Position numbers and translations under genes: made by a program. Positions 4,014 through 56,388 of a stretch of 64,000 nt of DNA are shown here, piece after piece; within the stretch, counting starts at the first letter, position 1; each line of letters begins with the position of its first letter. The notes beneath the pieces were generated by a model, which had not been told where the DNA came from, searched no databases, and saw only the letters and a list, made by a program, of their open reading frames with translations. This DNA is from Qipengyuania sp. ABI-127-1 (GTDB lineage: Bacteria; Pseudomonadota; Alphaproteobacteria; Sphingomonadales; Sphingomonadaceae). Location: contig JALJCR010000004.1 of assembly GCA_022953095.1 (NCBI GenBank), positions 1 to 64,000 of the forward strand, given 5' to 3'.

Positions 4014-5333
4014 GTGACACCCTTTCCTTGGACCGACCTGCTGATCATTGCCGGGCTGATCGTGCTGAATGGCGTTTTCGCCATGAGTGAACTGGCCATC
4101 GTCTCTGCCCGTACCGCCCGCCTCAGGGCGGCGGCGCAGCAGGGGAACGGCGGCGCCAAGATTGCGCTGGAACTGGCAGCGGAGCCGGGCAAGTTCCTTT
4201 CCACGGTCCAAATCGGAATCACATTGATCGGGATCGTTGCCGGGGCTTATTCGGGCTCGAGCCTTGGCGGCCCCGTGGGCGAGCGTCTCGCCGCTATCGG
4301 TTTCCCGACCGGCTGGGCGCAGGAGGCGGGCTTCGCCGCGGTCATAGCCGTGACGACCTATCTCAGCCTCGTGGTCGGCGAGCTGGTGCCCAAACAGGTC
4401 GCGCTGCGCGCTGCGGTGCCGATCGCGATTGTCATGGCACGGCCCATGGAGATGTTGGCGCGAATCGCCGCTCCGGTGGTGTGGTTGCTGGATATATCCT
4501 CTGGCGCACTCATCCGTCTGCTTGGCGTAAGGCCGGCGGGTCAGAGCGCGGTGACCGCCGAAGAACTCCATATGCTGTTCGCCGAGGCGACACGCTCGGG
4601 TGTGATCGAACATGAACAACATCAGATGTTGCAGGGTGTCGTCCGCCTCGCCCAGCGGCCCGTGCGTGAATTGATGACGCCGCGTACCGAGGTCGATTGG
4701 ATCGATATCGAAGCCGATCAAGATGCGATTCGCGCTGTGCTCGATGAAAGCCCTCATTCGCTGCTGCCGGTGGCGGAAGGGTCGCCCGACAAGATTTTGG
4801 GCGTGGTCAAGGTGCGCGAGATCCTGACCCGGCTGGTGGCGAAGCAGGCGGTCGATCTGCAGTCGTTGATGATCAAGGCGGAGGTCGTGCCCGACCAGCT
4901 CGATGCCGTGGACGCTCTACGGGTTCTGCAGCAGGCAGAGGTCGCGATGGCCATGGTCCACGACGAATACGGGCATCTCGACGGGATCGTCACGCCGGTC
5001 GACCTGCTGACCGCGCTGGTCGGCGATTTTGTCAGCGATCAGGATCCGGGCGAAGCGCCGGGTATCGTCGAACGTGAGGATGGCAGCCTTCTGGTCGCGG
5101 GTTCGCTTTCCGCCGACGTTCTCGCGGATCGGCTGGCGATCGAATATGGCGAGGACCGCGAATTTGGCACGGCTGCCGGTTTTGCCTTGCACGTCCTGAA
5201 GCGCCTTCCCGGCGAAGGCGATTATTTCACCGATCAGGGCTGGCGTTTCGAGGTGATCGATATGGATGGCCGACGTATCGACAAGCTGCTGGTGAGCCGC
5301 GAGAGCAATGCCGTTCCAACGGCAGAGGGCTAA
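4014..5333 (+). CDS. Hemolysin/CorC-type CNNM-CBS membrane transporter
   Basis: A 439-residue protein in the HlyC/CorC (TlyC) family. The N-terminal CNNM (DUF21) domain has membrane segments near residues 8-30, 60-85, 98-125 and 135-160. A CBS-domain pair follows, including MTPRTEVDWID near residue 222, and a C-terminal CorC/HlyC domain ends the protein. Relatives are implicated in Mg2+/Co2+ efflux; the hemolysin name is historical. GTG at 4014 is used because the family motif NGVFAMSELAIVSAR must lie near residue 20 and no upstream ATG is in frame. No strong ribosome site is visible. Confidence 0.85.
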   Translation: MTPFPWTDLLIIAGLIVLNGVFAMSELAIVSARTARLRAAAQQGNGGAKIALELAAEPGKFLSTVQIGITLIGIVAGAYSGSSLGGPVGERLAAIGFPTGWAQEAGFAAVIAVTTYLSLVVGELVPKQVALRAAVPIAIVMARPMEMLARIAAPVVWLLDISSGALIRLLGVRPAGQSAVTAEELHMLFAEATRSGVIEHEQHQMLQGVVRLAQRPVRELMTPRTEVDWIDIEADQDAIRAVLDESPHSLLPVAEGSPDKILGVVKVREILTRLVAKQAVDLQSLMIKAEVVPDQLDAVDALRVLQQAEVAMAMVHDEYGHLDGIVTPVDLLTALVGDFVSDQDPGEAPGIVEREDGSLLVAGSLSADVLADRLAIEYGEDREFGTAAGFALHVLKRLPGEGDYFTDQGWRFEVIDMDGRRIDKLLVSRESNAVPTAEG

Positions 5334-5342
5334 AGAAGAGAG

Positions 5343-5580
5343 GTTTTTGTTTGGCCTCAAGCACCGGCGGGCCTGTCCGGGTCCTTAGGCTATCCTCGTT
5401 CACGCGACCTGGCGGTCGCATTTGCCTCGCCTACGGTTCGGAACTTTCGCCAACATCAGGATTCGCACCAGGTCCGGGCCGGGGGAGGCCCGGCAAGGCC
5501 ACGTGGCCGCACCGCAGCGGGTGCAGCTTGCTGCATGTCGAGCGAGGACGAACCCGCGGAGGCGGGTTCGCAAAACAAAA
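5343..5580. repeat. Long dispersed intergenic repeat, copy 1
   Basis: This 238-bp block fills nearly the whole gap between the convergent genes ending at 5333 and 5585. It is flanked by AT-rich ends, GTTTTTGTTTGG and GCAAAACAAAAG, that are roughly inverted copies of each other. Inside are several GC hairpins, for example GAACCCGC/GCGGGTTC at 5550-5569. It matches 14933-15191 in inverted orientation: the 24 bases at 5512-5535 are identical to the complement of 14977-15000, and TTAGGCTATCCTCG is also shared. Confidence 0.85.
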
Positions 5581-5584
5581 GCCC

Positions 5585-5995
5585 TTACCCGGGGATCACC
5601 GCACTCGCGCTCGCACCGTCGCCTTCGGGCGCGGCAATGATGTCGCGGGTCACGCTGCCCTTGGCGACAGTCGCGGTATCCGGGTCACCCACAGCGCTGC
5701 GGATTCCAGGTGCCGCGGTTCCTGCGCGTTCGAGCAGGCTCGTCTCCACGTCGCTGCGTGCCTGCGGGCCGCCAAAGAGCGCTTCGAGAGTCTGCTGTGC
5801 CGCGCTGCCTTCGGCCGGGCGCGGGGCGCCGGGCTGCGGGGGAACGAGGTTGAATTCGGGCGGCACCACCAAGGGAGCCTGGCGCTGGACGGCGAATTCG
5901 TCGGGCCGGTCACGGTTGAGCAGGCCCCCGCCACCGCAGGCTGCGGTCATGGCGCCGAGGCCGGCGATCAGGGCGATACGGGCGTATTGGGTCAT
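5585..5995 (-). CDS. DUF3035 lipoprotein, BamF-like
   Basis: A 136-residue lipoprotein. The signal MTQYARIALIAGLGAMTAAC places the lipidated Cys at residue 20, followed by a proline-rich low-complexity chain with a VPPEFNLVPPQPGAP block. This matches the DUF3035 family, whose Caulobacter member BamF is a subunit of the beta-barrel assembly machine. The start overlaps the lspA stop by ATGA, so it is translationally coupled to the signal peptidase that would process it. It is the last gene of the long minus-strand operon. Confidence 0.75.
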   Translation of the reverse strand: MTQYARIALIAGLGAMTAACGGGGLLNRDRPDEFAVQRQAPLVVPPEFNLVPPQPGAPRPAEGSAAQQTLEALFGGPQARSDVETSLLERAGTAAPGIRSAVGDPDTATVAKGSVTRDIIAAPEGDGASASAVIPG

Positions 5996-6543
5996 TGCTT
6001 GCTCTCCGCGGCGTCGGCCGCCTTGTTGTTCATGAGGCCATCGACCTCTTGTTCATCCTTGTCGCGCATGAAGAAGGCCCGCGCAAGGACGATGACTACG
6101 CCGATGGTGATAGCCGCATCGGCGACGTTGAAAATGAGGAAGGGGCGAAAATCCCCGAAATGCAGATCGGCGAAATCGACGACATAGCCGAACGCGTAGC
6201 GGTCCTTGATATTGCCCAGCGCCCCGCCGAGGATCAGCGACAGCGCGAGGATATCGCCGAGCAGTTTTTCGCGCAGCATCCACACCGTCACGACCAGCGC
6301 GATCAGTGCGGTGACGAGGACCAGGCCCCAGCGCATTTCGGGGCTGGTCGCCTCGAACATACCCAGCGACACGCCGAAATTGCGCGTGAAGCGCAGGTCG
6401 AAGATCGGCAGAAGTTCCATGGCGTCGCCGACCCGGTCGATACCGAGCACTTTGGTGACGTAATTCTTGCTCCACTGATCGGCGGCAAAGATCGCCAGCG
6501 CGACCACACAGCCGATCAGGCGGTTCTTCATCACGGCGTTCAT
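5992..6543 (-). CDS. lspA: Lipoprotein signal peptidase
   Basis: A 183-residue membrane aspartyl protease that cleaves prolipoproteins after lipidation. Four hydrophobic helices are visible. The catalytic aspartates are D123 in GYVVDF and D142 in FNVADAAI, close to the E. coli positions. The ATG at 6543 overlaps the ileS stop (ATGA), and the family start MKNRL follows four residues later, so an alternative start at 6531 is possible. The ileS-lspA order is widespread in bacteria. Confidence 0.95.
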   Translation of the reverse strand: MNAVMKNRLIGCVVALAIFAADQWSKNYVTKVLGIDRVGDAMELLPIFDLRFTRNFGVSLGMFEATSPEMRWGLVLVTALIALVVTVWMLREKLLGDILALSLILGGALGNIKDRYAFGYVVDFADLHFGDFRPFLIFNVADAAITIGVVIVLARAFFMRDKDEQEVDGLMNNKAADAAESKQ

Positions 6544-9500
6544 CGGGCGGCATCCCATTGGGCGACGACGGGCTGACAGCGATCGCACAGATCGCCGTCT
6601 TCCTCGACCGATGGCAGTAGGCGCCAGCAGCGCCCGCACTTGCTTTCGTTTGTCCGTGTGACCGTCACCGTGTCGCTATCGCTGCGGGTGACTGACGCGG
6701 TGATGAACAGTTCCGCGAGATCGGCATCGCTGAAGCCTTCGGGCACCGCCGCGGCGGGCACGACCACGTCGGCCTCCAGCCCCGAGCGGATCACCTTGTC
6801 GCGCCGCAGTGGCTCGATCGCTTCCATCACGTCTTCACGCAATTCGCGCAGCTTGTCCCACCGGGCGCCATCTGCGCCGACCCCGGGAACCTGTGGCCAT
6901 TCAAGCAGGTGGACGCTGCCACCGTCGGGATAGCGGGTCGACCACACTTCCTCGGCAGTGAACACCAGCACCGGCGCGGCATAGCGGACCAGCGCGTGGA
7001 ACAGCAGGTCGAGCACGGTGCGATAGGCATTGCGCTTCACGCTGTCCGGCCCGTCGCAATAGAGCACGTCCTTGCGGATATCGAAGTAGAAGGCCGACAG
7101 GTCCTCGTTGCAGAAATCGACCAGCAGCCGCGTATAGGCGGTGAAGTCGTAATTCTCCGCCGCCTGGCGCAGCTTTCCGTCGAGATCGGCGAGCAGGGCG
7201 AGGACGTAGAGCTCCAGTTCGGGCACTTCGCCGACATCGCTCATATCGCCGACAAATCCGTCAAGCGCGCCGAGCAGATAGCGGAAGGTGTTGCGCAGCT
7301 TCCGGTACTGGTCGCCCGTACCTTTGAGGATCTCGTCGCCGATGCGGTGATCCTCGGTCGAATCGACGCTCAGTGCCCACAGGCGGATGATGTCCGCCCC
7401 GTACTGTTCCATGACCTTGAGCGGATCGATCGTGTTACCGAGGCTCTTGGACATCTTGCGCCCGTCGCTGGCCATGGTGAAGCCATGCGTCAGCACCTGG
7501 TCGTAGGGCGCCCGGCCGCGCGTGGCGCAGCTTTCGAGCAGCGAGGACTGGAACCAGCCGCGATGCTGGTCGCTGCCCTCGAGATAGAGATCGGCGGGCC
7601 ATTTGAGCGCAGGCCAGCGCCCGCTTTCCAGCGTAAAAGCGTGGGTGCAGCCCGAATCGAACCAGACGTCGAGAATGTCGGTGACCATCTCGAACTCGTC
7701 CGGATCGTGCTCGGGGCCGAGGAATTCGGCCTTGCGCGCCTCGTCCCAGGCATCGACGCCGTCTTCGCGCACCGCGACGACGACGCGGGCGTTGACGTCC
7801 GGGTCTTGCAAATAGGAACCGTCAGGCCGCACGAACAGCGTGATCGGCACGCCCCAGGCGCGCTGGCGCGAGAGCACCCAGTCGGGGCGGCCTTCGACCA
7901 TCGAGCCGATCCGGCGGCGCCCCTTCTCGGGCACGAAGCGCACGCGCTCGATTTCGGACATGGCGCGTTCCCTCAACGTCGTCCCAGCTTTCGCTGGGAC
8001 GACGTCTAACGGCTTGTCCATCGGCACGAACCATTGGGGTGTGCAGCGATAGATTACCTTGGCTTTCGAGCGCCACGAATGCGGGTAGGAGTGTTCGTAA
8101 TCGGCACTCGCCGATAGCAGCGCGCCCGCTTCGCGCAGATCCGAACAGATCGGGCCTTCGGGCGCATTGAACGGCTTGTTGATGACGCTGCGCCGACGCT
8201 CGTCCTCGCCGCCGAGCCACGGCCAGTCGTCGCGATAGCGCCCATCGGCCATGACCGCGAAGACCGGCTCGATCCCATGCTCGCGGCAGAGCAGGAAGTC
8301 GTCCTCGCCATGGTCGGGCGACATGTGGACGAGACCGGTGCCGCTATCGGTGGTGACGAAATCGCCCGGCAGGAAGGGTCGCGGCTTGGCGTAGAATGCG
8401 AGCGCCTTTTCCCACGCCGCGACCTGACTACCGTCGTCGCCCCGGACTTGATCCGGGGTGGTGCTGCCTTCCGCTGCCATCGCAGAAGAGAAGCCTTGGC
8501 CCGGATCAAGTCCGGGCTGACGGGAGAGGAGGAGGTCGTAGATGGGATGACGCGCGACGGTCCCGGCGAGGTCGGAGCCTCGCAGTTTGCCGCGAACGCC
8601 ATACTCCAAACCATACTTCGGCTGAGTAAGATTCGCAGGATTCTCCCGCATTAGCTGGTTGAGAAGCCTTCCCTTAAGTTGTTCAGCTAGCTCTGCCGCC
8701 ACTAGGACGGTCTTGCCGCTCCACGGATGGTCCAATGGTGTCGATTTTGTATGCTGAGCATCGACGTCTTCGAGCGCGTTGAACGCGACAAACTCGAGCC
8801 TAACATACTCAACCTCCGGACCGTATGCGATCGCCTGGTTCACCGGGATCGTCCAAGGCGTCGTCGTCCACACTACCGCATGCGCGCCGACCAGCTCCTC
8901 GATCGGGCTCTCAGTGATCTCGAACGCTACGTCGATCTGCGGGCTGTCGGTCAGGTCCTCGTATTCGACCTCGGCCTCGGCCAGCGCGGTTTCTTCCACC
9001 GGGCTCCACATTACCGGCTTCGAGCCGCGATAGAGATTGCCTGCTTCGGCGAATTTCATCAGCTCGGCAACGATGGTCGCCTCGCTTTCGAACTGCATCG
9101 TCAGATAGGGATTGTCCCAGTCGCCCATGATGCCGAGGCGCTTCAACTGCTCGCGCTGCACATCGACCCATTTCTGGGCGTAGGCGCGGCATTCGGCGCG
9201 GAATTCCTTCGGCTGGACCTCGTTCTTGCTGCGCTTTTTCTTGCGGTATTGCTCCTCGACCTTCCATTCGATCGGCAGGCCGTGGCAATCCCAGCCGGGG
9301 ACATAGGGCGCGTCCTTGCCCATCAGGTTCTGCGTGCGGCAGACCATGTCCTTGAGCGTGTGGTTGAGCGCGTGCCCGATATGCATGTCGCCATTGGCGT
9401 AGGGCGGGCCGTCATGCAGGATGAATTTCTCGCGCCCGGCGCGCGCTTCGCGCAGTTGGCGGTAAAGCCCTTCCTCTTCCCAGCGCGCGGCAATCTTCGG

Positions 9501-9584
9501 CTCCTTTGCGGGGAGGCCGGCCTTCATGGGAAAATCGGTCTTGGGCAGGAAGACCGTGTCTCTGTAATCGCGCTTCTCGGACAT
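6540..9584 (-). CDS. ileS: Isoleucyl-tRNA synthetase, enlarged by in-frame palindromic inserts
   Basis: A 1014-residue class I synthetase that charges tRNA-Ile. HIGH is at residues 68-71 and KMSKS at 710-714. The CP1 editing domain contains GTGLVHMSPDHGEDD, and a C-terminal zinc knuckle uses Cys 983, 986, 1000 and 1003. It is some 75 residues longer than E. coli IleS (938). Part of the excess is explained by two palindromic elements in frame, at about residues 356-383 and 527-537. The stretch at about residues 255-330 is visibly more AT-rich than its surroundings. The enzyme should still be functional, since the frame and all motifs are intact. Confidence 0.96.
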   Translation of the reverse strand: MSEKRDYRDTVFLPKTDFPMKAGLPAKEPKIAARWEEEGLYRQLREARAGREKFILHDGPPYANGDMHIGHALNHTLKDMVCRTQNLMGKDAPYVPGWDCHGLPIEWKVEEQYRKKKRSKNEVQPKEFRAECRAYAQKWVDVQREQLKRLGIMGDWDNPYLTMQFESEATIVAELMKFAEAGNLYRGSKPVMWSPVEETALAEAEVEYEDLTDSPQIDVAFEITESPIEELVGAHAVVWTTTPWTIPVNQAIAYGPEVEYVRLEFVAFNALEDVDAQHTKSTPLDHPWSGKTVLVAAELAEQLKGRLLNQLMRENPANLTQPKYGLEYGVRGKLRGSDLAGTVARHPIYDLLLSRQPGLDPGQGFSSAMAAEGSTTPDQVRGDDGSQVAAWEKALAFYAKPRPFLPGDFVTTDSGTGLVHMSPDHGEDDFLLCREHGIEPVFAVMADGRYRDDWPWLGGEDERRRSVINKPFNAPEGPICSDLREAGALLSASADYEHSYPHSWRSKAKVIYRCTPQWFVPMDKPLDVVPAKAGTTLRERAMSEIERVRFVPEKGRRRIGSMVEGRPDWVLSRQRAWGVPITLFVRPDGSYLQDPDVNARVVVAVREDGVDAWDEARKAEFLGPEHDPDEFEMVTDILDVWFDSGCTHAFTLESGRWPALKWPADLYLEGSDQHRGWFQSSLLESCATRGRAPYDQVLTHGFTMASDGRKMSKSLGNTIDPLKVMEQYGADIIRLWALSVDSTEDHRIGDEILKGTGDQYRKLRNTFRYLLGALDGFVGDMSDVGEVPELELYVLALLADLDGKLRQAAENYDFTAYTRLLVDFCNEDLSAFYFDIRKDVLYCDGPDSVKRNAYRTVLDLLFHALVRYAAPVLVFTAEEVWSTRYPDGGSVHLLEWPQVPGVGADGARWDKLRELREDVMEAIEPLRRDKVIRSGLEADVVVPAAAVPEGFSDADLAELFITASVTRSDSDTVTVTRTNESKCGRCWRLLPSVEEDGDLCDRCQPVVAQWDAAR
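7976..8005. repeat. Palindromic element inside ileS (VVPAKAGT type)
   Basis: CGTCGTCCCAGC (7977-7988) and GCTGGGACGACG (7993-8004) are perfect inverted repeats around TTTC, with one further A-T pair outside. In the ileS frame the element encodes DVVPAKAGTT, inserted where other IleS proteins run directly into LRERA. Peptides of the V(V/I)PAKAG(T/I) kind are the usual translation of a dispersed palindromic repeat of alphaproteobacteria. Confidence 0.8.
8441..8516. repeat. Inverted repeat pair inside ileS (PGLDPG type)
   Basis: CCCGGACTTGATCCGGG (8441-8457) and CCCGGATCAAGTCCGGG (8500-8516) are exact complements of 17 bp, separated by 42 nt. In frame they encode PGLDPGQG at one end and TPDQVRGDDG at the other, typical read-through peptides of dispersed repeats in sphingomonads. 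The element lies in the CP1 editing domain region of ileS. Confidence 0.8.
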
Positions 9585-9631
9585 AGAGGCGAGCCGCTAA
9601 CCGAATTGGGGCGCGGTGGAAAGAGTTTCGG

Positions 9632-10558
9632 TCAGCCGAGCAGCCGCCTGGCCTCGTCGCAATCCTTTTCCATCTGGGCAATCAGCCCCTCGAGCGAATC
9701 GAACTTCGCCTCGCCGCGCAGGAAGTGGTGGAAGGCGACTTCGATTTCCTGCCCGTAGAGATCGCCGGAGAAATCGAAGAAATAGGGCTCGAGCAATTCC
9801 TTGGGCGGGTCGAATTGCGGGCGCACGCCGATATTGGCCGCGCCCTTCAGTTCCTGCCCGGTCGACAGGATGCGCCCGGTCACGGCGTAGACGCCGTATT
9901 TCGGGCGCAGATATTGTTCGACCGGCAGGTTCGCCGTGGGATAGCCGATTTCGCGCCCGCGCTTGTCGCCGTGCTGAACCACGCCGCGAATGGCGAAGGG
10001 GCGGGTAAGCAGGCGCGCAGCCTCCTGCGGATCGCCCTCGCGCAGCGCATCGCGCACCCGGCTGGAGGATACGGGCTTTCCGCCATCCATCACCGGCGGC
10101 ACTGCGCGCGCCTCGATCCCGACATCCCTGCCGAGGCTCACCAGGTTGTCGAAATTGCCGCCCCGCGCCTTGCCGAAGGTGAAATCCTCGCCGGTAACGA
10201 CGCCCGCGACGCCGAGATGATCGCCGAGCAGCCTGCCCACGAAATCCTCTGCCGTGGTCCCGGCCAGTTCGCCGTCGAAATGGAACACCAGCATCGCGGT
10301 CGCCCCGGCGGCGATATAGTGTTCCTGCCGCTGTTCGAGCGTCGTCAGCCGGAAAGGCGGTGCATCGGGTTTGAAATGGCGCACCGGATGCGGATCGAAT
10401 GTCGCGATGATCGAGGGACGGCCTTCCGCGCGCGCCCAGCGAATCGCCTCGCCCGCCACGGCCTGGTGGCCGAGGTGAAAGCCGTCGAAATTGCCCAATG
10501 CGATGATCGCGCCACGCAGGCTCTCGGGCAGCGGTTCGCGGTGATCGAGCCATCTCAT
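9632..10558 (-). CDS. ribF: Bifunctional riboflavin kinase / FAD synthetase
   Basis: A 308-residue protein that converts riboflavin to FMN and FAD. The N-terminal FAD synthetase domain (about 1-180) contains LGNFDGFHLGH and a SSSRVRDALREG motif. The C-terminal riboflavin kinase domain (about 185-305) contains GREIGYPTANL and GVYAV. The start overlaps the dipeptidase stop by ATGA. ileS follows after 47 bp, an adjacency (ribF-ileS-lspA) conserved across proteobacteria. Confidence 0.95.
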   Translation of the reverse strand: MRWLDHREPLPESLRGAIIALGNFDGFHLGHQAVAGEAIRWARAEGRPSIIATFDPHPVRHFKPDAPPFRLTTLEQRQEHYIAAGATAMLVFHFDGELAGTTAEDFVGRLLGDHLGVAGVVTGEDFTFGKARGGNFDNLVSLGRDVGIEARAVPPVMDGGKPVSSSRVRDALREGDPQEAARLLTRPFAIRGVVQHGDKRGREIGYPTANLPVEQYLRPKYGVYAVTGRILSTGQELKGAANIGVRPQFDPPKELLEPYFFDFSGDLYGQEIEVAFHHFLRGEAKFDSLEGLIAQMEKDCDEARRLLG

Positions 10559-11733
10559 CGCGTGGTCTCCTGCGGCACCAGCCCTTCACCGATCACCCGC
10601 AGCGCATTGCCACCCATCGCCGCGCGAATCTCGTCCTCGGTGAAACCCTCGTCGAGCAGCGCCTGCGTAACCTGGGTCAGTTGCGAGGTATCGAAGCGCA
10701 CGGTGACCGCGCCGTCATAGTCGCTGCCCAGCGCCACATGTTCGATCCCGACTAGGTCGCGAATATGTTTCATCGCCCTGGCGGTGGCGCGCGGCGAGGT
10801 GTCGCACACCGCGCCTTCCCAATAGCCGACACCGATGATCCCGCCGGTCGCCGCGACCCCGCGAATTTCTGCGTCGGTGAGGTTGCGGTTTTCCTGGCAG
10901 GTCGCCTGCACGCCGCCATGGCTGGAGACCACCGGCCGCTGCGCCATGGCGAGTACCTCGGCGACGCATTGGTGGCTGCAATGGGCGATATCGACGATCA
11001 TCCCCATGCGCTCCATCCGGCGGATCACATCGCGCCCCATCGGTGTGAGGCCGCCCTTTTCGATCCCGTGCATCGACCCGGCCAGTTCGTTGTCGAAGAA
11101 ATGAGTGAGCCCCGCCATGCGCATGCCTGCCGCATAAAGCCGGTCGAGATTGTCGGGATTGCCTTGGAGGCTTTGCAGGCCTTCGGCGCTGAACAGGGCG
11201 CCGACCGGCTTGGAGGCGTCCTTACGTGCCGCCATCAGGCGATCGAGGTCCGCCGGGGTCCAGACCTGATAGATTTCTTCGCGCCCGGCCTCGAATGCCC
11301 GCTCCAGTTTCTCGGCATGCCATAGCGAGCGTTCGAGCAGGCTACCCCAGGTTCGCACCGGCTGCATCTGGCCGATCGCCAGCAGCGTAATGTTGTCGCT
11401 GTCGGCGGAATTCGAATCGTAGTTCTGCCCTCGCGGGGTTTTAGTCACGCTGGAGAAGACCTGCAGCGCGACATTGCCTTCGCGCAGCCGCGGCAGGTCG
11501 ACATGGCCGCGCTCCGCCCGGTCGAGGATATCGCGCTTCCAAAGCAATGTATCGGCATGGAGGTCGACGATTTCGAGGCTGGCGTGCAACGCCCTCGCCT
11601 CGTCCGAGATTTCGATCAGCGGCTTGCCATCGATCTTGTTCATGTCCCGCTCGGCCATTCCCGGTACGAGCAGGAAGAACCCGGCGAGCGCGACGAGGAT
11701 CAGGCCGAGGATGCCCATGAGCAGCTTGCGCAT
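10555..11733 (-). CDS. Membrane-anchored dipeptidase, renal dipeptidase (M19) family
   Basis: A 392-residue protein. One N-terminal hydrophobic helix (about 3-26) without a clear cleavage site suggests a periplasm-facing membrane anchor. The zinc-site signature IVDLHADTLLW lies near residue 55. Later metal-ligand regions are GLTHFFDN, IVDIAHCSHQC, PVVSSHGG and LGSDYDGA. Family members hydrolyse dipeptides, often of D/L configuration. ATG at 11733 shares its A with the folA stop (TGATG), which favours it over the GTG one codon upstream. Confidence 0.87.
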   Translation of the reverse strand: MRKLLMGILGLILVALAGFFLLVPGMAERDMNKIDGKPLIEISDEARALHASLEIVDLHADTLLWKRDILDRAERGHVDLPRLREGNVALQVFSSVTKTPRGQNYDSNSADSDNITLLAIGQMQPVRTWGSLLERSLWHAEKLERAFEAGREEIYQVWTPADLDRLMAARKDASKPVGALFSAEGLQSLQGNPDNLDRLYAAGMRMAGLTHFFDNELAGSMHGIEKGGLTPMGRDVIRRMERMGMIVDIAHCSHQCVAEVLAMAQRPVVSSHGGVQATCQENRNLTDAEIRGVAATGGIIGVGYWEGAVCDTSPRATARAMKHIRDLVGIEHVALGSDYDGAVTVRFDTSQLTQVTQALLDEGFTEDEIRAAMGGNALRVIGEGLVPQETTR

Positions 11734-12227
11734 CACGCCGCGCGCTCCAGCGTGACGAAGCTATAGGCAGGCAGGTCGCCTTCGCTTGCGAAATCCTCGC
11801 GGCCGATCACGTTCCATTCGGGACCGAGCGGTTTCATGAAAGTGTCGCCTTCGAATTCCGCGTGAATTTCGGTCAGCTCGATACGGTCGGCATGTTCCCT
11901 GAACACGTCGTATATCGCAGCGCCGCCGATGACGGCCACGTCGCCGTCTCCTGCGACAGACAGCGCCTCTTCGACTGAACGCACAATTTCCGCGCCCGTC
12001 GAATCCCAGCGCTCGCGGCGGGTCAGTACGATATGACGGCGGCCCGGCAGCAGGCCCGGCAGGCTCTCGAAGGTCTTGCGGCCCATGATCATCGGCAGGC
12101 CTTGGTTCTCTTGGCCCATGGTCAGCGCCTTGAAGCGCTTCAGATCGGCGGGCAGGTGCCATGGCAGCACGCCGTCTTTGCCGATGCAGCCATTGGCCGC
12201 GCGGGCATAGATCAGGAACAGGCTCAC
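11733..12227 (-). CDS. folA: Dihydrofolate reductase
   Basis: A 164-residue enzyme that regenerates tetrahydrofolate using NADPH. Visible blocks are GCIGKDGVLPWHLPADLKRF near residues 13-32, IMGRKTFESLPG near residue 48 and VIGGAAIYDVF near residue 98. The start overlaps the purK stop by ATGA. thyA, often its neighbour, is not in the window. Its place behind purEK couples folate supply to purine synthesis. Confidence 0.95.
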   Translation of the reverse strand: MSLFLIYARAANGCIGKDGVLPWHLPADLKRFKALTMGQENQGLPMIMGRKTFESLPGLLPGRRHIVLTRRERWDSTGAEIVRSVEEALSVAGDGDVAVIGGAAIYDVFREHADRIELTEIHAEFEGDTFMKPLGPEWNVIGREDFASEGDLPAYSFVTLERAA

Positions 12228-13279
12228 CGTTCGAGCCGGGTCACATGGCCCATCTTGCGTCCCTCGCGGACCTCGGCCTTGCCGTAATCGTGCAGGTGCG
12301 TGTCGACCGCGGCCAGCTGTTCTTGCGCCGTCTTGATGTCGGCGCCGATGATGTTCGTCATGGTGACGGATCTGGCGATGGTCGCCGTATCGCCCAGCGG
12401 TAGGCCAGCGACCGCGCGAATGTGGTTCTCGAACTGGCTGGTGACCGCGCCCTCGATCGTCCAGTGGCCCGAATTGTGCACGCGCGGGGCCATCTCGTTG
12501 AAGATCGGCCCTTCATGCGTGGCGAAGAATTCAAGCGTCAGCACGCCGACATATTTCAGCGCATCGGCGACCTGGCGGGCCAGCTCGCGCGCTTCGTCCA
12601 CCTGGGCTTCGATGATGTCGCCCGCGGGCAGGGTGGAAGCGGCCAGAATGCCATTTTCATGCGTGTTGCGCGCCGAATCCCAAAACCGGATTTCGCCATC
12701 CTGTCCGCGCACGACTATGATCGAGAATTCGGCCTCGAACTCGACGAAACCTTCGTAGATCAGCGGGACGTCGGGCAGATGCAGGCCCTGTGCATCGCGG
12801 TCCGATCCGATCCGCCACTGGCCCTTGCCGTCATAGCCGTCCCGCCGGGTCTTGAGGATGCCGGGCGCGCCCAGCCGATCGACCGCCGCCTCGAGATCGC
12901 TGCGCGAATCGACCCGTGCATAAGCGGCGGGTCGGCCGCCAAGCCCTTCCACGAAGCGCTTCTCGGCGAGGCGATCCTGGGCCGTTTCGAGCGCGCGTGG
13001 ATGCGGAAAAATGCGTCCTTCCGGCATAGCATTGGCCGTGGCGACGGGTACGTTCTCGAATTCCCAGGTGACTACGTCGCACTGCGCGGCAAAGGCGGCA
13101 AGGGCTGCTGTTTCGTTCCACTTGTTCACGAACAGATCGTCGCACACCTGATTGACGACATTGTCGCCTTCGGGCGCGTAGGCGATGCAGCGATAGCCCA
13201 ATTGTGCGGCGCTCACGGCCATCATTCGGCCAAGTTGCCCACCGCCGAGGATACCGATTGTCGAACCGCGCTTCAGCAT
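12224..13279 (-). CDS. purK: N5-carboxyaminoimidazole ribonucleotide synthase
   Basis: A 351-residue ATP-grasp enzyme that carboxylates AIR to N5-CAIR in purine synthesis. It starts [20 protein letters not shown], the family start, so the longer reading to 13327 is rejected. The ATP-grasp core includes ILKTRRDGYDGKGQWRI near residue 150, and FNEMAPRVHNSGHWT near residue 265 is diagnostic of PurK. ATG overlaps the purE stop (ATGA), and its own stop overlaps folA the same way. Confidence 0.96.
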   Translation of the reverse strand: MLKRGSTIGILGGGQLGRMMAVSAAQLGYRCIAYAPEGDNVVNQVCDDLFVNKWNETAALAAFAAQCDVVTWEFENVPVATANAMPEGRIFPHPRALETAQDRLAEKRFVEGLGGRPAAYARVDSRSDLEAAVDRLGAPGILKTRRDGYDGKGQWRIGSDRDAQGLHLPDVPLIYEGFVEFEAEFSIIVVRGQDGEIRFWDSARNTHENGILAASTLPAGDIIEAQVDEARELARQVADALKYVGVLTLEFFATHEGPIFNEMAPRVHNSGHWTIEGAVTSQFENHIRAVAGLPLGDTATIARSVTMTNIIGADIKTAQEQLAAVDTHLHDYGKAEVREGRKMGHVTRLER

Positions 13280-13761
13280 CAGTCGACGGGGCGCTCGGTC
13301 ACGGCTGCGCTGCGCGCCGCGCGCCAATCCTGCAGGCGCTGCGAAAGCGCGGAGTCGTGATTGGCGAGGATCGCGGCGGCAAGCAGGCCCGCATTGGTCG
13401 CGCCCGCCTTGCCGATAGCCAGTGTTCCAACCGGTACGCCGGCGGGCATCTGGACGATCGAAAGCAGGCTGTCCTCGCCCGACAAGGCCCTTGACTGTAC
13501 GGGCACGCCAAGCACCGGAACATGGGTCAGCGCGGCGATCATGCCGGGCAAATGCGCGGCGCCACCCGCGCCTGCAATAATTACCTCGAAGCCCGCATCT
13601 GCCGCGCCCTTGGCGAAATCATACATGCGATCCGGCGTTCGATGGGCCGAGACGATACGCACATCGCTTTCGACACCCAGCTCTTCGAGCACCTCGGCGG
13701 CGCAGGTCATGGTGTCCCAATCGGACTGGCTGCCCATGACGATGGCGACCTTGGCGTTCAT
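13279..13761 (-). CDS. purE: N5-carboxyaminoimidazole ribonucleotide mutase
   Basis: A 160-residue class I PurE that converts N5-CAIR to CAIR, the step after PurK. It contains MGSQSDW near the N-terminus, [10 protein letters not shown] near residue 40 and the [12 protein letters not shown] loop. The start at 13761 is preferred because AAAGGA lies about eight bases upstream. An alternative ATG at 13770 would overlap the gpmA stop but has no room for a ribosome site. Confidence 0.95.
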
Positions 13762-13762
13762 C

Positions 13763-14449
13763 TCAGGCATCCTTTAGATAGTAGCGGTCGCCCGACACCT
13801 GCATGCCGTCGAATTCATAGACGATCGGTTGGCCGGTCGGAATTTCGAGACCGGTAATCTCGTCGTCCGAAATGTTCGACAGATGCTTCACCAGCGCGCG
13901 CAAGGAATTGCCATGGGCGGAGATGATGACCGTTTCGCCCTTGCCGAGTTGCGGCAGGATCGCGCTTTCCCAATAGGGCAGCACGCGCTCGATGGTGAGC
14001 TTGAGGCTTTCGGTGCGCGGCACGTCGATCCCCGCATAGCGCGGGTCGTTCGACAGATCGAATTCGCTGCCCGGCTCGAGCTCGGGTGGGGGCACGTCGA
14101 AGCTACGGCGCCAGACATGGACCTGTTCGTCGCCATGCTTCTCCCGTGTCTGCTGCTTGTCGAGGCCGGTCAGCCCGCCATAGTGGCGCTCGTTCAAATG
14201 CCAGTCGCGCGTGACCGGGATCCACAGGCGGTCGCAGGCTTCGAGCGCGATGTTGAGCGTCTTGATTGCACGCTTCTGGACGCTGGTGAACGCAGTGGTG
14301 GGCAGCACGCCCTTGGCTTTCATCAGCTCGCCTGCCTCGCGCGCTTCGGCCACACCCTTTTCCGTGAGGTCGACATCCCACCAGCCGGTGAAGCGGTTGG
14401 CGAGATTCCACTCGCTCTGGCCGTGGCGGACAAGGATGAGTTTCGACAT
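13763..14449 (-). CDS. gpmA: 2,3-bisphosphoglycerate-dependent phosphoglycerate mutase
   Basis: A 228-residue enzyme that interconverts 3- and 2-phosphoglycerate. The phosphohistidine motif [10 protein letters not shown] places the catalytic His at residue 9. [13 protein letters not shown] and the second active-site His in [11 protein letters not shown] are present. The start [10 protein letters not shown] at 14449 is the family start; the longer reading from 14542 runs through a palindromic repeat and is rejected. This is probably the first gene of the nine-gene operon ending at 5585. Confidence 0.96.
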
Positions 14450-14464
14450 ATCTGCTCCCGTTTC

Positions 14465-14557
14465 CGGTTCCAGCCCACTCCCCCGGCACCCACGGCAAGA
14501 TACTGTCCGGGTGGCCGGGTGGGGAGTGGGCTGGAACCGCATCCCCGCGTAAGCGGG
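14465..14557. repeat. REP-like palindromic element upstream of gpmA
   Basis: CGGTTCCAGCCCACTCCCC (14465-14483) and its exact complement (14521-14539) form 19-bp arms around a 37-nt loop. The complement of the left half carries TTGCCGTGGGTG and matches the element at 2976-3039. A short hairpin CCCGC-GTAA-GCGGG (14544-14557) abuts it, resembling another dispersed palindromic repeat. It sits in the leader of the gpmA operon. Confidence 0.7.
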
Positions 14558-14577
14558 ACAACAATGAGCAAGGCGCG

Positions 14578-14721
14578 TTAGCTGGCCGTATCGTCCTTGG
14601 AAAGGCCTTGCTCGTCCGATTCGCGCATTTCCCGCCCCTGCGCCTTGCGGCGGCGCAGGTTCTCACGAAGTTTCGCAGCGAGCCGCTCCTCGCGTGTCAT
14701 CTTGTCATTTCGGGCGTTCAT
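14578..14721 (-). CDS. Small basic protein of unknown function
   Basis: A 47-residue protein starting [20 protein letters not shown]. It is highly charged, with an Arg/Lys-rich central helix and an acidic tail, and has no membrane segment. AAAAGGAA lies upstream of the ATG at 14721. The longer frame that reads back to 15027 passes through the tRNA-Thr gene and a repeat, so it is not real. Small proteins of this appearance are common in sphingomonads; I cannot assign a role. Confidence 0.6.
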
Positions 14722-14835
14722 GGCGCATTCCTTTTGCGAAAATCGGCTCCAGCCGCAAGCGAAGGTTGACTTATGCGCCGCGTCTGCCATTAGCGCGCGC
14801 CTCCACCCCGCTGGCATTTCCGGCGGGCACGACGT

Positions 14836-14910
14836 GCTGCTGTAGCTCAGTGGTAGAGCGCACCCTTGGTAAGGGTGAGGCCGGGAGTTCAATCCTCCCC
14901 AGCAGCACCA
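14836..14910 (+). tRNA. tRNA-Thr (GGT)
   Basis: Acceptor arms GCTGCTG and CAGCAGC, D-arm GCTC/GAGC, anticodon arm CACCC/GGGTG around TTGGTAA (anticodon GGT, reading ACC and ACT), and T-arm GGGAG-TTCAATC-CTCCC. The CCA end is encoded (14908-14910). No variable-arm insertion. Confidence 0.97.
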
Positions 14911-14928
14911 TTTTTCGAAGAAAAATGG
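14908..14928 (+). terminator. Hairpin overlapping the CCA end of tRNA-Thr
   Basis: CCATTTTTC (14908-14916) and GAAAAATGG (14920-14928) are perfect 9-bp arms around GAA. The left arm includes the encoded CCA of the tRNA. It probably acts in termination or 3'-end processing, although the T-run lies in the stem rather than after it. Confidence 0.4.
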
Positions 14929-14932
14929 ATTC

Positions 14933-15191
14933 CTTGTTTTTCGCACCGACATCCGTCGGCGCGTCCTCGCTATGCGTGCAGCAAGCTGCACCCGCTGCGG
15001 GGCGGCCGCTTGACCTTGCCGGGCCATCTCGGCCCGGATCGCGGGCGTCCCTCAGGGTTTGCAATAGTCTCCGAGCCGTCAGGCGAGGCTAGCGCGACTG
15101 CGCCCCCGCAGCGACGCGCCCGAAGGGCGTGTGAGCGAGGATAGCCTAAGGCCGCGGGCGCGGCCGTCGGCGCCTGAGGCTCAACAAAAAC
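14933..15191. repeat. Long dispersed intergenic repeat, copy 2 (inverted relative to copy 1)
   Basis: A 259-bp GC-rich block bounded by TTGTTTTTCGC and CAACAAAAACC, filling the gap between tRNA-Thr (+) and the SDR gene (-). Its complement aligns with 5343-5580 over the AT-rich ends, the TTAGGCTATCCTCG segment, the GGCCCGGCAAGG segment and a 24-base identical stretch (14977-15000). Spurious small frames through it resemble junk proteins often predicted in this bacterial group. Confidence 0.85.
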
Positions 15192-15208
15192 CGAATGCGC
15201 TGCGGGAC

Positions 15209-16105
15209 CTAGGTCGATCTATCCGCCTTATCCTTGGCATTCGTGCCCTTGATCATCGCGCGCATCGCTTCCCACTGCTCGTCGCCCATGTCCTTGAGCG
15301 CGGTGTAGAAGTTGCCGCCATGCGTCTGGAAACCGCCGCCGTCGATGGCGATCGTCTGGCCGTTTACCCAAGCCGCACCCGGCCCCATCAGAAAGACGGC
15401 GAGATTGGCGATTTCGTGCATTTCGCCATGGCGGCCCATCGGGTTCATATCATCGTGAGAATTGCCGCCCCTCCCGCCGGGCGAAAGGCGCGCGCTCATC
15501 CCGTCGGTGGGGAATAGACCCGGCGCGATGGCATTGAAGCGCAAGCCATAGCGGCCCCATTCCACCGCGAGGCTCTGCGTCATCGCATTCAGGCCCGCTT
15601 TGCTCATGGCGCTCGGCACCACGAAGGGGCCGCCGTTCCATATCCACGTGGTCAGGATGGAGAGGAAGCTGGCCTTGCGGCCTTCTTCGATCAGCCGCTT
15701 GCCCACATCGAGCGTGACGTAGAAGCTGCCGCGGAAGACGATGTCGCTGATGGCATTGAAGCCATTGACCGAAAGATCCTCGGTCCGGCTGATGAAGTTG
15801 CCTGCGGCATTGTTGACCACACCGGTAAGCGGCCCACTGTCCCAGATCGCATCGACCATGGCATGGATCGCATCGGGATCGCGGATGTCGCAGGCATGTC
15901 CGACGATCTTTCCGCCGTGCCTCTCGCCGAGTTCCTTGGCCGCCTCGTCGAGCTTGCCCTGACGCCGCCCGCAAATATGCACTTCGGCGCCGAGTTTGAG
16001 GAAGGCTTCCGCCATTTCCTTGCCAAGTCCGGTGCCGCCGCCGGTGACGAGGATGCGCTCGCCCTCCATCAGGCCCTCGCGAAACATCAGCCTTGAAGTA
16101 TCCAT
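15209..16105 (-). CDS. SDR oxidoreductase, 2,4-dienoyl-CoA reductase-like
   Basis: A 298-residue Rossmann enzyme. The NAD(P) site TGGGTGLGKEMAEAF lies near residue 20, with CGRRQGKLDEAA after it and NNAAGNF near residue 100. Instead of the classical YxxxK catalytic pair it has VVPSAMSKAGLNAM, as in DECR-type 2,4-dienoyl-CoA reductases, where the tyrosine lies elsewhere. It likely reduces dienoyl-CoA intermediates in unsaturated fatty acid oxidation, but the exact substrate is inference. GGAGA precedes the ATG. The gene ends at the boundary of the long repeat. Confidence 0.8.
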   Translation of the reverse strand: MDTSRLMFREGLMEGERILVTGGGTGLGKEMAEAFLKLGAEVHICGRRQGKLDEAAKELGERHGGKIVGHACDIRDPDAIHAMVDAIWDSGPLTGVVNNAAGNFISRTEDLSVNGFNAISDIVFRGSFYVTLDVGKRLIEEGRKASFLSILTTWIWNGGPFVVPSAMSKAGLNAMTQSLAVEWGRYGLRFNAIAPGLFPTDGMSARLSPGGRGGNSHDDMNPMGRHGEMHEIANLAVFLMGPGAAWVNGQTIAIDGGGFQTHGGNFYTALKDMGDEQWEAMRAMIKGTNAKDKADRST

Positions 16106-56307: not shown

Positions 56308-56388
56308 CCCGCCTCCGTTCGTGTCGAGCGAAGTCGAGACACGGATGGCCTGGACGCATCTCGACTTCGCTCGATGCGAACGGGCGGG
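56308..56388. repeat. REP-like inverted repeat pair upstream of prfC
   Basis: TCGAGCGAAGTCGAGA (56324-56339) and TCTCGACTTCGCTCGA (56359-56374) are perfect 16-bp arms. Imperfect pairing of CCCGCC..CGTTCG with CGAACGGGCGGG extends them to about 30 bp. The right edge is 14 bp before the prfC ATG, so the hairpin lies in the leader. Sequences with the core TCGACTTCGCTCGA are a common dispersed repeat of sphingomonads. Confidence 0.8.

Follow-up and report, generated by a model that had tools for sequence, protein, structure and literature searches.

The intergenic repeat that separates a CorC-type gene from a small converging gene in this Qipengyuania genome is best read as belonging to a family of composite palindromic repeats that is specific to its lineage, a mosaic of the BIME/REPIN kind whose maintenance would take place at the level of the DNA, and we give this reading as a whole a probability of about 0.57. 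The elements are dimers of arms mostly of unlike type with T-rich ends, they are dispersed between genes, their stems covary, and they sit in persistent places (slots) in which the arms may change. What would be new is this family, as a variant of that kind of mosaic palindromic repeat; no earlier description of it was found in the open-access literature searched, mostly at the level of listings.

The window, by which we mean the whole stretch of 64,000 nucleotides that was analysed, holds two complete and homologous elements on opposite strands: copy 1 (5342-5580, plus strand), with arm B on the left and arm A on the right, and copy 2 (14934-15192, minus strand), with arm A on the left and arm B on the right. 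Matches of 80-82% in inverted orientation join 5342-5410 to 15124-15192 and 5487-5578 to 14934-15025, and a search of the whole own genome with copy 1 retrieved copy 2 at E 1.9e-29 and 71% identity. Alignment and genome search thereby confirmed the repeat of about 240 bp and its second copy that had been described in an earlier note on this DNA, and the AT-rich inverted ends claimed there were found in the copies as T-rich and A-rich inverted ends. Copy 1 lies 8 nt from the stop (5333) of the CorC-type gene (4014-5333, plus strand) and 4 nt from the stop (5585) of the small gene on its other side (5585-5995, minus strand). The left end of copy 2 lies 23 nt from the end (14910) of a tRNA-Thr gene (GGT; 14836-14910, plus strand) and its right end 16 nt from the stop (15209) of the converging SDR-type dehydrogenase gene (15209-16105, minus strand). 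Both gaps are therefore convergent, as the note had it; its stop codon on either side applies to copy 1 but not to the left of copy 2, where the neighbour is a tRNA. The names of the window genes (CorC-type, SDR-type dehydrogenase and the like) are putative assignments to families. The block between the copies (5585-14910) runs from the small protein gene through lspA and ileS, the isoleucyl-tRNA synthetase gene (6540-9584, minus strand), to tRNA-Thr, and it is inverted in related genomes. The gap between tRNA-Thr and copy 2 also contains an AT-rich 9-bp hairpin (14908-14928) with a T-rich tail that continues into the end of the element. Elsewhere in the window, an inverted repeat of 25 nt that is 92% complementary, with a spacing of 19 nt (56315-56383), is dissimilar to the element.

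At the structural level, a complete element is a composite palindrome of about 250 bp (median 252.5 bp, n=52) made of two hairpin arms of about 100 nt, set head to head between T-rich inverted ends. From its outer end, each arm consists of a T-run, hairpin H1, TCCTCG, hairpin H2, GCTGCGG, hairpin H3, CTTGC and usually a fourth hairpin, and the arm types A to E are distinguished mainly by H2. The T-run is conserved over about 12 nt and has the consensus TTTTTTGTTTTT in 139 arms, its final T often being replaced by G; at the left end of copy 1 this terminal inverted repeat reads GGTTTTTGTTT (5342-5352, plus strand). H1 is a stem of 9 bp with a loop that is usually NTCC. A covariance model of arm A (R1; 92 positions, 4 helices) matches arm A of copy 1, with its T-run, H1, TCCTCGCT, H2, GCTGCGG and H3 (5488-5580, minus strand), at E 8.2e-20, and arm A of copy 2 (14932-15024, plus strand) at E 2.8e-19; arm B of copy 2 (15083-15196, minus strand) was placed by its sequence and matches the arm-A model weakly (E 0.11). 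H1 of copy 1 (5549-5570, minus strand) is a covarying 9-bp stem with the NTCC loop on the arm strand. Across 24 arm-A sequences, 97.4% of the cells are paired and changes on both sides of a pair number 44 versus 12.9 in shuffles, and pairing drops to 32-44% when the partners are slid by 1-3 columns. One of the five covariation measures, the number of pair types, did not exceed shuffles (13 versus 13.2), and no compensatory changes were seen in the TCCTCGC/GCGGG helix of these 24 sequences. Both copies fold better than shuffled sequences as RNA (z -2.57 for copy 1 and -3.84 for copy 2), and copy 1 also as DNA (z -2.24). The several internal hairpins noticed earlier were correctly described. In the fold of copy 1, TCCTCG pairs with CGAGGA of the other arm and the T-run pairs with the A-run. 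Regarding known RNA families, only tRNAs reach the Rfam gathering score in the window, and six element loci gave, besides tRNA, only sub-threshold matches at E<=1, of which a single one touches an element (BcKCsr2 in locus L060, 20.5 bits versus the 40 needed).

The distribution of the family is lineage-specific. BLAST with copy 1 found it in 33 of the 37 genomes of the genus, its own included, and in 0 of 24 from other families, while R1 recognised arms in 60 of 199 genomes and 36 of 96 genera of the bacterial family at E<=0.01, a threshold at which about two chance matches are expected; with at most 21 candidates scored per genome, the copy numbers are minimum values. Within the own genome, the copy 1 query gave 8 matches at E<=0.001, itself counted, and R1 gave at least 17 at E<=10 and at least 11 at E<=0.01. 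The whole-genome search proposed in the earlier note has thus returned many more copies, at positions that are not random, and the note's condition for refutation did not hold. Two of the R1 matches in the own genome sit in copies of a region that was recognised by eye as rRNA-tRNA (L007 and L008); these are half-elements of the same sequence in two copies of the rRNA-tRNA(Met) region. In a collection of named genomes, a degenerate arm-A pattern matched 70 stretches, which belong to Qipengyuania, Erythrobacter, Actirhodobacter or 'Erythrobacteraceae'. Copy 1 had no match among plasmid and phage records. Arm A was found in eight viral contigs, seven of which are gene transfer agent clusters; in the eighth, a putative phage (L135), it lies in frame within a primase-like ORF (5274-7097, minus strand), and in 24 of 25 genomes the alignment with relatives of this ORF covers only the part upstream of the arm (query residues 3-373 at most).

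With respect to genes, none of those called was seen to overlap an arm in an overlap scan. The 63 arm-A places counted comprise 24 convergent, 30 tandem and 9 divergent ones, with convergent exceeding divergent (P 0.014), a count that covers loci L060-L129 with tRNAs included, keeps the 63 of 72 places flanked by features on both sides (9 incomplete ones dropped), and relies on gene calls from a codon-usage script, which is a non-standard caller. A Fisher test on convergent gaps was set aside, because the loci had been picked for the presence of an element, which itself lengthens the gap. With 30 tandem and 9 divergent places, the family is not confined to the convergent gaps proposed earlier. 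Arms begin a median of 6 nt after an upstream feature that points at them, and within 25 nt in 35 of 42 cases; after a feature that points away, the median is 71 nt and 0 of 21 begin within 25 nt. Arms lacking a nearby inverted partner are common (36 versus 31 that have one). Arms for which a loose motif test gave no partner lie in the sense of the gene 21 times versus 7.

The proximity to 3' ends, the convergent excess and the gene-sense bias of partnerless arms favour a different explanation, namely that of a host RNA element in which the arm, as a structured module of the 3' untranslated region, would end transcripts or protect their 3' ends, and the double arm would serve two converging genes. 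Further points on this side come from 16 loci with the gene transfer agent's major capsid gene: four of them (in G005, G002, G023 and G008) carry arms on either side of the gene, upstream as well as downstream, and in most of the remaining loci these gaps hold ordinary T-run hairpins (L267 was left unassigned; L060 and L066 were likewise examined at this gene). In addition, the T-run of a terminator-like hairpin runs on into an arm in L032/L262 and in L252. At odds with such an RNA element, 9 of the 63 places are divergent, a terminator scan of 4800-15800 gave 7 sites versus 7.2 in shuffles with none inside either copy, and the anatomy of an intrinsic terminator, a hairpin followed by a T-run, is absent from both copies. 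A wobble test that was expected to favour RNA also came out against it: selection on the RNA of the upstream gene should leave more G-U than A-C mispairs on that strand, and the opposite was observed in 71 distinct H1 stems (G-U 10 versus A-C 27 on the arm strand, counts that ignore relatedness). Because the A-C excess would fit the other strand and the counts are phylogenetically dependent, they are no proof of a role as DNA, and they speak rather against the simple 3'-UTR idea than for such a role. Taken together, we regard the RNA element as unlikely, and a role at transcript 3' ends as possible from the sequences compared. Of the transcript ending suggested in the earlier note, the anatomical hints persist (arms close to 3' ends and terminator-like hairpins before some of them), whereas terminator anatomy and wobble asymmetry give it no support. 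As for the gene transfer agent itself, the near relative G005 retains the cluster, several of whose gaps hold elements (L247, 1979-13085), a search of the own genome for the major capsid gene gave nothing at E<=1e-30, and one own-genome arm (L009) adjoins an ORF that by eye resembles the gene transfer agent small terminase.

Same-type arm pairs make up 3 of 60 elements versus 16.8 expected, and no shuffle of 5000 gave so low a number. The deficit is also seen in elements located through their neighbouring genes and not through arm A, with types taken from a motif classifier (2 of 24 versus 5.9 expected, P 0.034). Two elements, in L208 and L215, are C+C and represent the 2 same-type cases among the 52 full elements, and no A+A or B+B pair was seen among the classified elements. 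Two arms of one type would together make a long and almost perfect palindrome, whose avoidance is the natural candidate reason. The first base of the H1 loop is predominantly A in some genomes and predominantly C in others, and it agrees with the majority of its genome in 72 of 82 arms versus 55.7 expected, a value reached by no shuffle of 5000, in a test restricted to genomes with two or more arms that ignores how the genomes are related. Mixed loop bases occur in the own genome, G000 (3:2), and in JAIGNN (2:2). The whole H1 shows no such concerted evolution, its similarity within genomes being not above expectation (P 0.25), and at orthologous places 4.5 of its 22 positions differ (92 pairs) versus 5.6 elsewhere in other genomes. 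A loop that tends to be uniform, on a stem that is free, points to something that would read the loop and its flank, and not the stem.

The places occupied by the elements have been more durable than their contents. Among the 40 genomes with corC, the region beyond the end of this gene was read in 30 loci. The gene converges with the small gene in 24 of them, 16 of which have arms that vary in type and order, and it faces tRNA-Thr in five and something else in one. In the remaining 8 of the 24 the gap measures 3-58 bp, including one (L201) that is a bare H1 hairpin; element-free slots are thus common in the genus, which again counts against a host RNA element. Five slots are common to the own genome and G005, with element identities of 0.69 to 0.95 and flank identities mostly of 0.92 to 0.96 (one 0.78). 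In three of them the element has diverged beyond the flanks and in two it has not (LytTR-nadC, 0.951; C1:1470k, 0.932). At one slot the outer hairpins have been retained, and the alignment of the inner part is better when it is inverted (135/183 matches) than when it is kept straight (104/190), shuffles reaching 87 at most. In the SDR-side gap the order of the arms is C..B in G002 and B..C in its sister genome G035. No clean pair of an empty and a filled slot was found whose flanks match: in the L251 slot, where G005 has an element, G000 carries a different palindrome with a T-rich end (L278, C1:1233983-1234185). Slots therefore persist across species while their arms may be swapped or inverted.

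The two slots of the window are also the sites of a larger rearrangement. The orientation of the 9.4-kb block was compared in 13 genomes that retain corC as well as the SDR gene. The order of the window is present in six (G000, G005, G261, G016, G014 and G018), five have the block inverted with both ends read (G003, G035, G030, G015 and G002), in G007 the inversion was read at the SDR end only, and G025 was left unassigned. Both breakpoints of the flip lie in the two element gaps, and breakpoints and elements thus coincide. Arms are present at both breakpoints in G000, G005, G261, G002 and G035. In G018, G003 and G015 the gaps are too short for an element at both breakpoints; the flipped block is accordingly found lacking elements at one or both breakpoints in G003, G015 and also G030, and the window order lacking any element in G018. 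The elements would be the cause of the flip in our reading, although they may not have been, given that element-free genomes exist in both orders. In a tree of five proteins the window-order genomes split from the rest with a support of 0.999, and a single change of order is needed among the decided genomes. Two changes are needed if a deeper clade, in which corC faces the small gene and there is no SDR gene, counts as window order, the deciding branch having a support of 0.73. Among outgroups, the block adjoins the SDR gene in 0 of 15 loci from other genera. The role in chromosome architecture put forward earlier has in this way gained one concrete case, a block between the copies that is inverted in relatives.

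On the basis of these observations, a mechanism can be proposed in which the hairpins would be maintained as DNA, in single-stranded or cruciform state during replication, and arms would be copied or converted between slots by recombination. A putative helper factor might read the loop and the flanking motif and not the stem. Survival mainly at the 3' ends of genes may reflect that the least harm is done there, the joining of unlike arms would avoid a long perfect palindrome, and the inverted repeats could act as recombination partners through which the 9.4-kb block was flipped in relatives; the 3' ends of transcripts would be affected, if at all, only secondarily. The gene-sense bias of the partnerless arms counts against a purely DNA-level element, which need not be oriented in this manner. 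A more specific version, possible but rather unlikely, is a hairpin-cassette system with fixed slots, in which the outer hairpins would stay and the inner ones would be exchanged and inverted. Loop base and TCCTCG flank would be recognised, regardless of the stem, by a non-Y1 factor specific to the lineage, like arms in one slot would be purged, and pairs of slots would flip the blocks between them. Neither the search for PF01797 in 20 element-bearing genomes nor that for an autonomous copy in loci of at least 5 kb identified a transposase or other handling factor.

The DNA-level reading matters in several respects. An unlike-partner rule in arms of about 100 nt, in the absence of a RAYT, makes palindrome avoidance directly testable. 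A loop that tends to be uniform per genome on a stem that does not points to a putative hairpin-reading factor. Moreover, the two copies form a natural inverted-repeat pair, and the 9.4-kb block between them exists in both orientations within one genus.

Several known repeat systems resemble the family in part. MITE-like repeats such as ERIC, Correia and RUP share with it, in the part of PMC2229807 that treats them, a length of about 100-250 bp, inverted ends, strong hairpins and a mostly intergenic location, and it differs from them, within the scope of that account, in its two exchangeable arms and in having no detected target duplication and, among loci of at least 5 kb, no convincing autonomous partner. 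A classical non-autonomous MITE, moved by a DDE-type transposase recognising the T-rich inverted ends, would explain the conservation of these ends in 139 arms, the dispersal of the copies and their length of about 250 bp. We nevertheless consider it improbable, since flanking direct repeats of at least 6 nt occur in 2 of 52 elements versus 2.2 expected, no convincing autonomous copy was found among loci of at least 5 kb (one pair lies 2141 bp apart around phage-like ORFs, in L135), arms without an inverted partner are common and cut-and-paste does not predict the swapping of arms. The nonautonomous element suggested in the earlier note fits the dispersal and the T-rich ends, but neither a target duplication nor, in 20 element-bearing genomes, a transposase of the PF01797 type was found.

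CIRs are intergenic units of about 110 bp with two hairpin arms and a linker, known from Caulobacter and other alphaproteobacteria (PMC2229807, in the part cited). A CIR-type, methylation-linked repeat that marks chromosome state through GANTC sites would suit an intergenic, long, hairpin-rich alphaproteobacterial element, and copy 1 does have one GATTC. Against it, copy 2 has no GANTC and only 7 of 52 full elements contain one versus about 53% expected from base composition, and the T-rich terminal inverted repeats set the element apart from CIRs as outlined there. As GANTC is not conserved, CIR membership was rejected and the methylation-linked reading is very improbable.

The closest likeness is to REPs, BIMEs and REPINs, which in the sections of PMC3733652 cited here are extragenic palindromes forming head-to-head dimers in tandem and convergent gaps close to 3' ends, with heterodimers preferred in many families and stem families that differ by complementary changes. 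According to the same sections, the REPs of Sphingomonas wittichii lie no more than 20 bp from 3' ends, the heterodimer preference has no obvious explanation (section 14), CGTC REPs have no dedicated transposase, and E. litoralis and S. alaskensis have REPs within tRNA synthetase genes (section 15); an Erythrobacter figures in the RepRanger table of REP counts (PMC12306157). The window itself has a CGTC-type REP palindrome inside ileS (7977-8004; 8-bp stem, 4-nt loop). A REP as portrayed in the cited sections is a single palindrome of 20-40 bp set apart by a GTAG or CGTC tag, whereas the arms of the element measure about 100 nt with three to four hairpins and have neither tag at the required end: H1 is preceded by the T-run and followed by TCCTCG, and the sole occurrence of the letters CGTC is on the 3' side, where the last stem pair combines with TC. 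The Y1 (RAYT/IS200-type) transposase, PF01797, was found in 0 of 20 element-bearing genomes and in 3 of 13 without an element match, and an origin from RAYT/IS200 was rejected for the present-day genomes searched. Unlike REPs, BIMEs and REPINs, the element has T-rich ends and arm modules that are swapped and inverted in place; with BIMEs it shares the combination of its arm types A to E, head to head and in alternating orientation, as mosaics between genes.
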